Shown: positions 19,413-23,897 of the stretch, piece after piece
Layout of the letters: every line of letters begins with the position of its first letter
How positions within the stretch are numbered: position 1 is the first letter of the stretch
NCBI RefSeq assembly: GCF_003814915.1
Contig: NZ_RKQK01000001.1
Coordinates: 1,132,031-1,196,030, forward strand
DNA from: Pacificibacter maritimus
Lineage (GTDB): Bacteria; Pseudomonadota; Alphaproteobacteria; Rhodobacterales; Rhodobacteraceae
Reading direction: 5' to 3'
DNA: 64,000 nt
Made by a program: the position numbers and the translations under genes
Notes under the pieces: model-generated
Databases searched by the model: none
Told to the model about the DNA's origin: nothing
What the model saw: the letters and a program-made list of their open reading frames with translations, nothing else

Positions 19413-20417
19413 ATGTCAAAATCGTCGAAAACCCCCGAAACATTCAATGTTGTCGTTGTGGGACAAAACGGCCGTTTGATGTATGAAGCTTTGCTTTTTG
19501 CCTCCTCTTTGCGTGCCAACGATCCAAAATTCAAAGGGCGTCTGTTTATTGCAGAACCTCAGCCTGGCCCCAATTGGGCCAATGATCCGCGCATGAAGCA
19601 GGCCGAGCTTTTGGCTGCATTTGAACGTCTGAAAGCGGAAATCATACCGTTTGAAAACACGCATTTTGGCCAATCTTATCCCTATGGCAATAAGATCGAG
19701 GCCCTCAAAGCCCTGCCTGAAAATGAGCCTTTTGTGTTTTTCGACACAGATACGCTGATCACGGGGCCCATTTCTGAAATCCCATTCGATTTCGATCGCC
19801 CTTGTGCGTCACAAAAGGTCGAAGGCACTTGGCCCGAAATCGAACTTTACGGGCCAGGATATGGCGAGATCTGGAAATCGCTCTACGATAAATTCGGTTT
19901 GGAATTTGAAAGCACGTTAGACCTTGATCAGCCCGACGAATATTGGCGGCGCTATATGTATTTCAATGCGGGCTTTTTCTTTTACAAATGCCCCAAACTG
20001 TTTGGGGAACGCTTTACCCAATATGCAGTAGAGGTCCGCGATAATCCGCCTGAAGAAGCAGCTTTGCAAAACTATGACCCTTGGCTTGATCAAGTGGCGC
20101 TGCCTTTGGTGATCCATTCCTTTGGCGGTGCAAGACGCACGATCCCAGAGGACACGCTGGACGGGGCGATGTCGTGCCATTACCGAACGTTTCCGTTGTT
20201 ATTTGCCCGTGAAAGCGACGATGTGGTCGCAAAACTGCACAAAGCGGCAGAGCCCAACTGGATCAAGAAAGTGCTAAAGGAATTCGACCCGATCAAGCGA
20301 AACGTCTATCAAAATCGCGGACAAAAGGTGCGTGATATGTTTGATCGTGACAACCTGCCACGCCGCGAAAAGATGATCCGCAACCGCATTAAGAAAGCCA
20401 ATATGTGGATGCGCTAA
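19413..20417 (+). CDS. GT-A-fold glycosyltransferase-like protein
   Basis: A 334-residue cytoplasmic protein. A beta-alpha start (FNVVVVGQNGRLMYEALLF) leads to a DxD motif in FVFFDTDTLI (about 110-120), as used by GT-A enzymes to hold the metal and sugar nucleotide. Later NAGFFFYK and a WLDQVALPL segment match GT8-like folds, where an acidic residue and a conserved Asp lie. The C-terminal 60 residues are very basic (RKRNRIKKAN type), which could bind membrane or polymer. It lies 135 bases before the large GspL-PilP-like protein on the same strand, so a shared unit is likely. The acceptor is unknown. Confidence 0.6.
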   Translation: MSKSSKTPETFNVVVVGQNGRLMYEALLFASSLRANDPKFKGRLFIAEPQPGPNWANDPRMKQAELLAAFERLKAEIIPFENTHFGQSYPYGNKIEALKALPENEPFVFFDTDTLITGPISEIPFDFDRPCASQKVEGTWPEIELYGPGYGEIWKSLYDKFGLEFESTLDLDQPDEYWRRYMYFNAGFFFYKCPKLFGERFTQYAVEVRDNPPEEAALQNYDPWLDQVALPLVIHSFGGARRTIPEDTLDGAMSCHYRTFPLLFARESDDVVAKLHKAAEPNWIKKVLKEFDPIKRNVYQNRGQKVRDMFDRDNLPRREKMIRNRIKKANMWMR

Positions 20418-20552
20418 TATCACCCCATAAGCGTATAGTTTGCGCGTCGACCGAAAACTCGATTTCGCGCCGCACAGCTGTCGCCTTGGGGTAACTTTGA
20501 AACATATGGTCACGGCAGAACGCCGCGATCCCAGCAATTGACACGAGAGACA

Positions 20553-23500
20553 ATGAAGCCGAATTTTGCCTTAAATTTCACTCATACGGATCTGTCATTG
20601 CTCCACCGCACCTCGAATGGCTGGCATGTCATTGGCGATGTGTCCTTGGACGATCCGAATTTGGACAAGCAATTGGCAGTATTGCGCAGCACTGCCACAG
20701 CCATTGCCGCATCGGGTCTCTCGACAAAGCTGGTGCTGCCCAACAGCCAAATTCTTTACAGCAAGTTGGAAGATCAAGGCACAAGTACCGCCAAACAGCG
20801 CAAAGCCATCGAGCAATCTTTGATTGGTGCCACGCCCTATGCCTTGGATGAATTGGTCTACGATTGGACAGTGACACCGCAAGGCTTGCAGATCGCAGTC
20901 GTCGCAAAGGAAACGCTGGACGAGGCCGAAGGCTTTGCCGCCCAACACGGATTTAATCCGCTGACTTTTGTTGCTTTGCCTGAGGCGGGCGATTTTGACG
21001 GCGAGCCGTTTTTTGGACGCACCAAAGGGTGTGACGCACTTATCGGCAAGCGTACAAAAATTGAACCTGATACAGTCCCAATCAAAGTTATCAGCCCGTC
21101 TCATTCGCGCCCTTCCCCCGCAGCTTCTGCCCCTTTGATTGAACCTGAGCGGACCCCAGTGGCAGACGAGCTTCCTGCGCCAGTCACGCCTTCGGTGGCG
21201 CCTCAATCTGTCTCGCCCTCCGCTGCGGACAGCCCAGACGAAAACAAATCCGACAGGCCAACACTGACAACAGCCGTGCCAACTGTACCTGCTCCGTTGC
21301 ACCTAGATGAACCCGAAATTGAAACGTCACAACCGATTGTGGATGCGGATATTGCCACATCCGATTTTCTTGCCGCGGCTTTAGTTCCTGAACTTACCAA
21401 CGATGAGGCTGAGGCCGCTTTGGACGCGCCAGAGCCACGCACCAATCTGACCCCAGAACTGGACAGCTCTAAGGCCAAAGCCGACATGAGCGGGGCGGTT
21501 GAAAACAGCTATGAAGCCAGTGAAAACAGCGCATCCGTTTCACAGCAGAAACCAACTGATAGCACAGTTGATCCGACAGGAACGCCATCGCAAGATGCTG
21601 CGCCGTCACAGCAAGAGACGCAACAAAATCATATAGTTGCAGGCGACACATCACTGGCAAATGACGGCGAAACACCATCTGTGTCCGCACAGTCTGACAG
21701 TGAGACTACGCCAAATGCGTTTCAATCCTTACGCGCCTCTCGTGGGACCGCGCAAGATGACAACGCAGACAGTGCAGCCGCATGGCTTTCTAAAATGCCA
21801 TCTCGGGTTTTGACTGCAACGCCGCCTGCTGCAAGCGCTGCGACAGTGAAATCACCCGTCGCTGTGTCCTCCCTGAATAAGACGCCAGCCCCTGAAACCC
21901 CAGCAAGCCCCAAATCGGCTGACCAGCGTGTCACTGCGCGTCAAATTCCAGTCCCTGATCTGTCTGATCAGCCCCCCAAAGCGCCCTCTATACCCGATCC
22001 CAAAGGCGCGCAGCCGCGCGCGGCAAACGCGATTAACCCTGCGCCTGCGACATCCATGTCTGCCGAAAAATCGGCTAAAAAAAGCGCCGCAGCTGCGAAA
22101 GCGGCCCCCTTGCCAGAACCGCCAGCAATGCCCGCCCCTTTGGCTGCAAAGCGCCGCGTGGATACGCTTGAGCACAGCGAAGCCCCCGCTGAAACTGTGC
22201 GCATTGTCGCGGCAAAATCTGGGGAAACACCTGCCTCTATCACAGCACCTGCATCCCCAGCCAATCTGGATGAAAAAAGCACTCTGCTAAAGGCTGTCGC
22301 CGCCCCTAAACCTGAGACGCAATCAGAAACGACGAAGACGGCGAACACCCCAGTCAAAACAGATACATCTATTGGAAAGTCTGTCTTGGCGGCGGCCGCA
22401 GCGGGCGGAAGTACGGCTATTGCCGCGTTGAAAACCCTAAAGCGTCGCAAATCGGCAAAGCCAGAACAGACCCCCGTTGTGCAACCCAGTGGCGATGCAC
22501 CATTTGTGGACATGACCGAAGATGAAAGCACATCGCCACAACCCCTATCGGAGTCGGCTGCAGGTCTGATTGTTCACGACGACCAAACAACTGATCCGCA
22601 AACTGATATTTTCGGCGCGCGCAAAAAGCCCGCAAAGAAACGCAAACTGCCCCTTGGGTTGGTGCTGACACTGGTTCTGATTGTGTTTTTAGGCTTGGTG
22701 GCCGCTTGGGCATCCCTGTCAACGCCTGACAGCACGCAAGATCTAGACACGACACAAACCAGTGACGCACCCGAAGATACCGCCACGCAAGCGGTCGACG
22801 CGGCAATCGCCGAGGTCGAAAGTGAAATCGCAGCAGATGAAGACACCGCGATTGATGATGAATCGGTCTTGGCCTTTGAGAATGATCAAATAAATATCGA
22901 AGATATCACACGCCAGTATGTGGCGACGGGCGTTTGGACGCTTGCACCTGAAACGGGTTTAGGCGCCTCAGAAGACAGTTTGGACGATCTATATATCGCC
23001 TCGATTGATCCGAATATTTTATCGCAAGATGCTGTGGCCTTACCCCCTGCTTTGCCACAAAACCTTGATGCAACACCTGCGCCAACCGCGCGTCCTGCGC
23101 CTGCGGGAACGACTTATGAATTTGATGATCGCGGCCTCGTGCGTGCGACAGCGGATGGAGCGATCACGCCGTCAGGTGTGCTTGTTTTTGCGGGCAGACC
23201 TTCGACTATCCCTGCCCTGCGCCCCGTTGATGAAGACACAGAAACCGCACAAGTGGATGCGGCAGAAACAGTCGATCCGATTCGCGCCGCTTTGACTGGT
23301 TTTGTCCCGCGCCTGCGCCCAAGTGGTTTGGCTGAATCCAATGAATTGGCGCAATTTGGTGGACTTACACGCGCCGAATTAGGTGGGTTCCGCCCACGTC
23401 TGCGCCCCCAATCAGCCCAACAAGAAGCCCAAGCCATAGCTGAGGCCGAAGGCGCAGAGGCCCCCGCCGCAACTGCACCGATTGTAACAGTCTCACTGAC

Positions 23501-23897
23501 GCCAAAACCGCGCCCCCTGAACAGCGCCAAATTGGCCGCAGCCGCGCGCGCAGCACAGGCCGCAGTGCAACAAGCGACAGGTGAAACAAGCAACAACAGC
23601 GCGGCTGAACGTGTGACCGCATCCGTGCCCGCGCCCAGTATTCCGACAGGGCGTACCGCGACGACTGTGGCACAGGCTGCAACCGTCAAAAACGCGATCA
23701 ATCTGCGGCGCGTCAACTTGATGGGCGTTTACGGGTCTAGTTCGGATCGCCGCGCCTTGGTGCGCTTGTCCTCAGGGCGTTTGGCCAAGGTTAAAGTCGG
23801 CGATAAAGTTGATGGCGGGCGAGTGCAATCCATCGCCAACAGTTCACTGACCTATGTAAAAGGTGGCCGCTCTGTCACGCTAAATGTCGGCAGTTAA
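20553..23897 (+). CDS. Chimeric membrane protein: GspL/PilM-like head, PilP/GspC-like tail
   Basis: About 1,114 residues. Residues 1-165 resemble the cytoplasmic actin-like domain of type II secretion GspL / pilus PilM: LVLPNSQILYSK, then KQRKAIEQSL-x-x-ATPYALDELVYDW and QIAVVAKETLDEA. Residues 165-690 are a low-complexity Pro/Ala/Ser/acidic linker. One membrane helix lies near 699-721 after a KKPAKKRK positive patch, giving an N-in, C-out protein. The outer part holds the repeated motif (IPALRP, VPRLRP, FRPRLRP) and ends in a small beta domain (residues 1050-1114: NLMGVYGS..RALVRLSSGRLAKVKVGDKV) like PilP or the GspC homology region. Start ATG 20553 follows a GAGAGA site; TTG 20538 is less likely. 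Often annotated as hypothetical or wrongly as IF-2 because of the linker. Confidence 0.6.
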   Translation: MKPNFALNFTHTDLSLLHRTSNGWHVIGDVSLDDPNLDKQLAVLRSTATAIAASGLSTKLVLPNSQILYSKLEDQGTSTAKQRKAIEQSLIGATPYALDELVYDWTVTPQGLQIAVVAKETLDEAEGFAAQHGFNPLTFVALPEAGDFDGEPFFGRTKGCDALIGKRTKIEPDTVPIKVISPSHSRPSPAASAPLIEPERTPVADELPAPVTPSVAPQSVSPSAADSPDENKSDRPTLTTAVPTVPAPLHLDEPEIETSQPIVDADIATSDFLAAALVPELTNDEAEAALDAPEPRTNLTPELDSSKAKADMSGAVENSYEASENSASVSQQKPTDSTVDPTGTPSQDAAPSQQETQQNHIVAGDTSLANDGETPSVSAQSDSETTPNAFQSLRASRGTAQDDNADSAAAWLSKMPSRVLTATPPAASAATVKSPVAVSSLNKTPAPETPASPKSADQRVTARQIPVPDLSDQPPKAPSIPDPKGAQPRAANAINPAPATSMSAEKSAKKSAAAAKAAPLPEPPAMPAPLAAKRRVDTLEHSEAPAETVRIVAAKSGETPASITAPASPANLDEKSTLLKAVAAPKPETQSETTKTANTPVKTDTSIGKSVLAAAAAGGSTAIAALKTLKRRKSAKPEQTPVVQPSGDAPFVDMTEDESTSPQPLSESAAGLIVHDDQTTDPQTDIFGARKKPAKKRKLPLGLVLTLVLIVFLGLVAAWASLSTPDSTQDLDTTQTSDAPEDTATQAVDAAIAEVESEIAADEDTAIDDESVLAFENDQINIEDITRQYVATGVWTLAPETGLGASEDSLDDLYIASIDPNILSQDAVALPPALPQNLDATPAPTARPAPAGTTYEFDDRGLVRATADGAITPSGVLVFAGRPSTIPALRPVDEDTETAQVDAAETVDPIRAALTGFVPRLRPSGLAESNELAQFGGLTRAELGGFRPRLRPQSAQQEAQAIAEAEGAEAPAATAPIVTVSLTPKPRPLNSAKLAAAARAAQAAVQQATGETSNNSAAERVTASVPAPSIPTGRTATTVAQAATVKNAINLRRVNLMGVYGSSSDRRALVRLSSGRLAKVKVGDKVDGGRVQSIANSSLTYVKGGRSVTLNVGS

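Follow-up and report, generated by a model that had tools for sequence, protein, structure and literature searches.

In the 64-kb stretch of DNA analysed here (the window), one gene was found to encode a single chain with a GspL/PilM-type head at its N end and a GspC/PilP-type HR domain at its C end, and this protein is probably the remnant of a C-L-M platform of the type II secretion system (T2SS), fused into a secretin-independent scaffold that crosses the inner membrane. The folds of both ends, the loss of domains, the neighbourhood held in common with separate L-M-C genes and the persistence of the gene without a detectable secretin were supported by the data. The gene is widespread in Rhodobacteraceae, with one match per genome, and no name was found for it.

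Domain architecture of the fused protein

The ATG of the ORF was used as the start of the gene; a TTG at 20538 was the earliest possible start in a mechanical ORF call, and the stretch MKPNFAL read from the ATG was found to be kept in close relatives. The preliminary description had proposed one 1,114-residue chain with a GspL/PilM-like and a PilP/GspC-like end, and on this the profile comparison with decoys and the AlphaFold2 and PDB searches agree. The likeness at both ends very probably reflects homology. In an alignment of the window protein with 19 relatives (n=20), both ends and scattered short motifs were found to be conserved and the linker was not.

Table 1. Coordinates in the window of the fused gene and of its parts.
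Feature	Position	Strand	Description
Whole gene	20553..23897	+	1,114 aa; fused GspL-head/GspC-HR protein; single match in its own genome
GspL/PilM-type head	20553..21062	+	Residues 1-170; hhalign, AlphaFold2 and fold searches; presumably cytoplasmic
Long linker, Ala/Pro/Ser/Thr-rich	21048..22637	+	Residues 166-695; length varies in relatives
Single membrane helix	22647..22715	+	Residues about 699-721; hydropathy
Tether with [LP]RP motifs	22719..23642	+	Residues 723-1030; near-constant length in the family; presumably periplasmic
PALRP, PRLRP, PRLRP, PKPRP stretch	23211..23516	+	Residues 887-988
GspC/PilP-type HR domain, six strands	23706..23891	+	Residues 1052-1113

Both ends of the protein match subunits of one machine

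The fused head was found to match the alphaproteobacterial GspL profile at P 98.1 and E 1.4e-13 (hhalign). Head and tail each matched their own T2SS subunit at P 98.1, and the 12 other pairings, which were crossed head/tail pairs and decoys from neighbouring genes, gave 0.9 at most. The similarity of the N end was invisible with the single sequence and emerged only with a family profile or by fold comparison. The AlphaFold2 model of the head was found to match EpsL and PilM chains in the PDB; at 170 residues it is shorter than the EpsL chain (238) and PilM (about 350), and it aligned inside residues 10-176 of several PilM chains and over a wider span in EpsL and other PilM chains. The head may accordingly be read as the first lobe of the GspL/PilM fold.

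Eight of the ten GspL ORFs of other alphaproteobacteria were found to have 366-392 residues with a helix at about 206-247, and six of these eight can be read as carrying an N-terminal extension, followed by a true head of about 160-195 residues. The short head of the fused protein therefore looks like the local type of GspL and not like a fresh truncation. The loci used for the alphaproteobacterial GspL and GspC profiles had been located by matches to HR or T2SSL, which enriches the 1,141 ORFs surveyed for GspL and GspC. At E<=0.01 the head profile of the other alphaproteobacteria recovered the window protein, 34/56 fused proteins, 3/5 orphan GspL (those of separate L-M-C sets) and 1/4 GspL of Rhodobacteraceae T2SS loci.

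The C end, taken as a single sequence, was found to match TIGR03021 at E 1e-5 with 26.6 bits, below the cut-off of 34.65, and the tail alone matched the Pfam PilP family at E 0.004. The AlphaFold2 model of this end and the PDB search gave the GspC/PilP-type HR fold.

The two folds could have been recruited independently by domain shuffling, with a likeness to the T2SS that is one of folds alone. The ends lie far apart in the chain and the linkers are uncovered by any GspL, GspM or GspC profile, as such an origin would have it, but both ends match L and C of one machine, the family has separate L-M-C sets of which one shares its neighbourhood with fused copies, and no closer relatives of head or tail were found in unrelated proteins. 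This origin is highly improbable.

Linker, helix and tether

A linker of more than 500 residues and a single membrane helix had been claimed for the protein, and both measurements agree with this: the linker between head and helix was found to contain about 530 residues (17% Ala, 13% Pro), and one hydrophobic segment rose above the hydropathy threshold, with its best values at residues 699-717. The tether beyond the helix, which judging from the helix would be periplasmic, contained the motifs PALRP at residue 887, PRLRP at 919 and 948 and PKPRP at 984. The [LP]RP motif occurred four times in the periplasmic stretch, against 0.23 in composition shuffles (p 0.0002), and was not present in the cytoplasmic linker. 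Across 56 family members, which are related and so not independent, 137 motifs were counted against 35.1 in shuffled sequences (about fourfold), and 51/56 members exceeded the shuffled mean. Repeated P-x-LRP motifs on the outer side had been noticed before; the [LP]RP motifs, PALRP and the two PRLRP copies among them, are enriched over shuffles, with the side taken from the helix, and are putative binding sites.

In the 56 relatives that have head, HR domain and a distinct helix, the gap between head and helix had a median of 275 residues (IQR 118-355), and in the architecture survey it ranged from none to 519. The gap between helix and HR domain was steadier, with a median of 337 (IQR 320-357) in the same 56 relatives and a few outliers in the architecture survey. 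Members with almost no linker (e.g. those of loci L050, L109, L105, L104 and L106) were found to group with the orphan and T2SS heads (support 82/98), which fits a later growth of the cytoplasmic linker.

Distribution and state of the gene

The head profile was found to match 136 of 149 Rhodobacteraceae genomes, with one match apiece, and the names read for related loci were Rhodobacteraceae or unplaced alphaproteobacterial assemblies, with Celeribacter nearest. Rhodobacter capsulatus also has a homologue (L236). The HR domain was present in 11 of the 13 genomes missed by the head profile, and the other two are 74% and 76% complete. These 11 comprised four with the full architecture and a diverged head (G125, G165, G136 and G118), two with separate L-M-C genes (G089 and G052, the L gene of G052 being cut by a contig end), two with only an HR protein (G050 and G064), one truncated where its contig stops (G130) and two whose contigs are short (G063 and G153). 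Across the whole class, 14/240 genomes matched the HR profile, namely three Rhodobacteraceae and 11 others, and several of the 10 non-family loci inspected can be read as T2SS operons with GspL adjoining the HR protein. No second HR-profile match was found in the genome of the window beyond the reported gene.

A decaying relic without function is a highly improbable account of the gene. Two genomes (G050 and G064) carry the HR part only, and the copies of L033, L034, L113, L117 and L136 are divided between two ORFs or two frames, as decay would leave them; against this, the head was found in 136/149 genomes and the HR domain in 11 of the other 13, and within the genus of the window the heads are 55-72% and the tails 74-85% identical to those of the window protein despite the drift of the linker. 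The split copies lie at L033:8870-12336, L034:8119-11188, L136:7094-9993, L113:9115-10388 and L117:9860-11343, and each may reflect sequencing error, a true split or decay.

Some proteins carry the HR domain alone. In two genomes an HR protein with no recognisable head was found with metY nearby (L269:7051-7722 and L271:7450-7815), and that of L269 carries six [LP]RP motifs. Short HR-like proteins without a head match were found in several Rhodobacteraceae, at L051:8845-9690, L052:9166-9486, L275:7719-8015 and L276:7021-7365; their genes adjoin a short-chain dehydrogenase and, in three of the four, also a purF-like gene.

Separate L-M-C genes and the gene neighbourhood

Three adjacent genes of genome G089 were found to encode a GspL of 343 aa (head profile E 5.8e-28), a GspM-like protein of 183 aa and a GspC-like protein of 203 aa, and a different contig of G089 carries T2SS genes that include a second L, M and C. 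With the GspM of G089 as query, 6/394 family genomes matched, and L-like and C-like ORFs were present in all six; they were adjacent in G089, G622, G643 and G451, and the sets were incomplete in G043 (L on another contig) and G052 (L partial at the contig end). At these orphan loci no GspD, GspE or GspF match was found by tblastn with query proteins taken from two T2SS loci, which did recover 4/4 T2SS control loci; the GspG and GspK queries also found nothing there and missed some of the T2SS control loci. In G052, G451 and G622 the T2SSF matches occurred only as pairs in different frames, the arrangement of Tad loci, and a two-domain GspF was also present in G089, G643 and G043. A fused copy in addition to the L-M-C set was not detected in G089 and G052 (head and HR search) or in G043 (head search).

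The profile of the GspL periplasmic domain, at E<=0.01, matched none of 57 fused proteins (best E 0.13; window protein 6.9), 4/5 orphan GspL and 4/4 GspL of family T2SS loci. The fifth orphan GspL (L298) gave E 0.17, and only 109 bases separate its end from that of the contig.

The orphan locus L296 (G451) was found to contain, in order, metY, SIMPL, L-M-C, MoeA, XdhC, vWA, MoxR and MgtE. The seven neighbours of this set were present in identical order and orientation at the fused loci L104 and L105, and six of them, two inverted, at the fused locus L050. In 69 fused loci the counts were metY 39, SIMPL 34, MoeA 6, XdhC 6, vWA 5, MoxR 4 and MgtE 7; in 80 named fused loci with flanks of at most 5 kb they were metY 66 and SIMPL 55, and zero for MoeA, XdhC, vWA, MoxR and MgtE. 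None of the seven was found in any of 10 family T2SS loci. The other orphan loci contained none of the tested neighbours (L294 and L297) or one only (SIMPL in L295, metY in L298, MgtE in L272). The neighbour names rest on a reading of the sequences, except for SIMPL and the Cys/Met enzyme (metY), of which one member each was confirmed by Pfam.

Among the neighbours of the fused gene, an upstream gene for a 334-residue protein (window 19413-20417) was considered as an operon partner and rejected. It is co-directional with the fused gene at 41/42 loci and close (121-196 bases) at only 20/42, of which 19 belong to the window genus and one is L130; elsewhere the distance is 0.6-4.6 kb. The protein, although conserved in the vicinity of the fused gene, had no Pfam match and no PDB match, and its FFDTDT stretch resembles a glycosyltransferase DXD motif. 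The genes for a Na/H-exchanger (KefC-like), metY and SIMPL were likewise set aside as partners, being conserved neighbours whose role is unrelated or unassigned.

Secretion and pilus genes in the same genomes

It had been stated that no secretin or ATPase gene is close, and this holds, with no match to the GspD and GspE queries in the window. With the proteins of two Rhodobacteraceae T2SS loci, no GspD, GspE, GspF, GspK or GspL match, and with the GspG of one such locus no match to it, was found in the 64 kb (tblastn, E<=1e-4), the G, K and L queries being ones that also missed some T2SS control loci. In the survey of gene neighbours across Rhodobacteraceae, metY and SIMPL were recurrent and the 145 loci searched showed no T2SS gene close to the fused gene, some of the queries possibly being wrong-frame ORFs; two queries matched, and both were read as flanking ORFs of the query loci. 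In the genome of the window the sole secretin match and two T2SSF matches sit together on another contig, like a Tad locus, the T2SSF genes are single-domain only, and no T2SSL match and no PilN (PF05137) match was found.

In 44 hand-chosen, mostly near-complete genomes, a secretin match was found in 38 and a T2SSF match in 38, and the six that lack the one are the six that lack the other. All six carry the fused gene as a single open frame (L115, L114, L103, L159, L160 and L265). In the 38 secretin-bearing genomes a role in a Tad system or T2SS may exist, and the fused protein could be the inner-membrane alignment part of such a co-resident filament machine, with its HR domain docked on the secretin. 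The HR domains of GspC are reported to bind secretin N0 domains (PMC3169554), and the fused protein could serve a T2SS, because GspL and/or GspC went unrecognised by profile at 5 of the 10 T2SS loci of the family; the other five, however, have their own GspL and their own GspC, the fused gene is retained in 6/6 genomes without a secretin match, and no T2SS gene was detected near it in the 145 loci. The STN/N0 profile PF07660, which would miss a diverged N0, matched 0/11 genomes, the six secretin-free ones and that of the window among them. A filament-machine part is on balance quite unlikely.

The head could instead dock an MshEN protein other than GspE, such as an NfrB-like MshEN glycosyltransferase of the same genome, and tie c-di-GMP-controlled polysaccharide synthesis to the outer envelope. 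GspE is described as docking through its N1 domain onto the cytoplasmic domain of GspL (PMC10128026), and NfrB of E. coli, an MshEN glycosyltransferase, as binding c-di-GMP (PMC8669469). PF05157 matched 13/17 genomes, the genome of the window among them, and in 6/10 loci read the domain lies, by eye, on a GT2-glycosyltransferase-like protein. Such docking is nevertheless very unlikely, since no MshEN match was found in G129, G125, G451 and G622, each of which carries either the fused gene or separate L-M-C genes, three of the 13 MshEN genomes also contain a T2SS, and the MshEN gene and the fused gene are about 72 kb apart in the genome of the window.

The MshEN domain of that genome was observed outside the window at C1:1080756-1081001 (L309), on an apparent GT2 glycosyltransferase that is NfrB-like, and an NfrB-like MshEN protein occurs in some secretin-free relatives too.

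Proposed origin and function

The orphan set of L296 and the fused genes of L104 and L105 share one neighbourhood, no gene of which was found at the 10 family T2SS loci. The most likely origin of the fused protein is therefore an orphan C-L-M platform at this very site, which lost GspM and the periplasmic domain of GspL. In the trees the T2SS GspL heads stood apart from the fused and orphan heads, with long branches, and fused copies were found in more than one place; they allow a single fused clade but do not demonstrate it (p-AU 0.312), and fusion may have occurred once or several times. On these trees the separate L-M-C sets might conceivably be secondary.

For the topology, the partners, the course of evolution and the scaffold function the following is proposed. 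The C-L-M sub-complex of a T2SS would have become separated from the other parts of its machine in an ancestor of Rhodobacteraceae, and GspL and GspC would then have been joined into one chain at the orphan site. The GspL head and membrane helix and the GspC linker and HR domain would have been kept, and the periplasmic ferredoxin-like domain of GspL, GspM and the membrane helix of GspC dropped; the long disordered linker between head and helix may have grown later in many lineages. The head would recruit a cytoplasmic partner, the helix would anchor the protein in the inner membrane, and the tether of about 330 residues with its Pro/Arg motifs would give the HR domain access to a partner in the periplasm or the outer membrane. 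With two docking ends and the anchor kept and the middle dropped, the protein is most economically read as a recruiter that spans the inner membrane and has two working ends. The gene is present in genomes without a detected T2SS, and it therefore looks like a platform reused as a one-piece link of the envelope. The earlier suggestion of a one-protein inner-membrane platform or an envelope scaffold is supported in this sense, and the best reading is an exapted, secretin-independent, envelope-spanning scaffold.

A bolder version, which is rather doubtful, is that C-L-M became an independent machine in Rhodobacteraceae and then a single protein, which would function with no secretin, pilus or secretion ATPase and would link a cytoplasmic client, perhaps an MshEN glycosyltransferase, to a partner across the periplasm. 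If true, this would be a new kind of trans-envelope device built from secretion parts.

For a part leaving its machine a series becomes readable, from T2SS operon to orphan L-M-C set, L-C fusion and linker growth. The fused protein offers a way to test what a C-L-M platform can do without a secretin, and its persistence where none is detectable is an unusual and testable case of the reuse of a machine part. No description of a GspL-GspC fusion or of an orphan L-M-C set was found in searches of open-licence PMC papers.

Comparison with known systems

The fused protein has the short actin-like head and the single membrane helix in common with GspL/EpsL of the T2SS in its alphaproteobacterial type, but it lacks the periplasmic ferredoxin-like domain, no GspM or GspE gene was found alongside, and it has a long linker between head and helix, of about 530 residues in the window copy. 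Like the GspC HR domain and PilP, it ends in a six-stranded HR fold on a tether; unlike in GspC, this domain rides on a GspL-type chain behind the only helix of that chain, and it has neither the short cytoplasmic tail of GspC nor the membrane helix at the N end of GspC. It differs from both GspC and PilP in that it also occurs in genomes without a secretin match. The GspB/OutB scaffold of Dickeya, as described, differs in being a part of the T2SS that anchors the secretin (PMC9239104). The XpsCLM assembly-platform complex of the Xanthomonas T2SS has subunits of the same kinds and is reported to form independently of the secretin (PMC11981180); as presented there, XpsCLM consists of three proteins that serve secretion, whereas in the fused protein L and C are one chain and M is gone, and its gene persists where no T2SS was detected.
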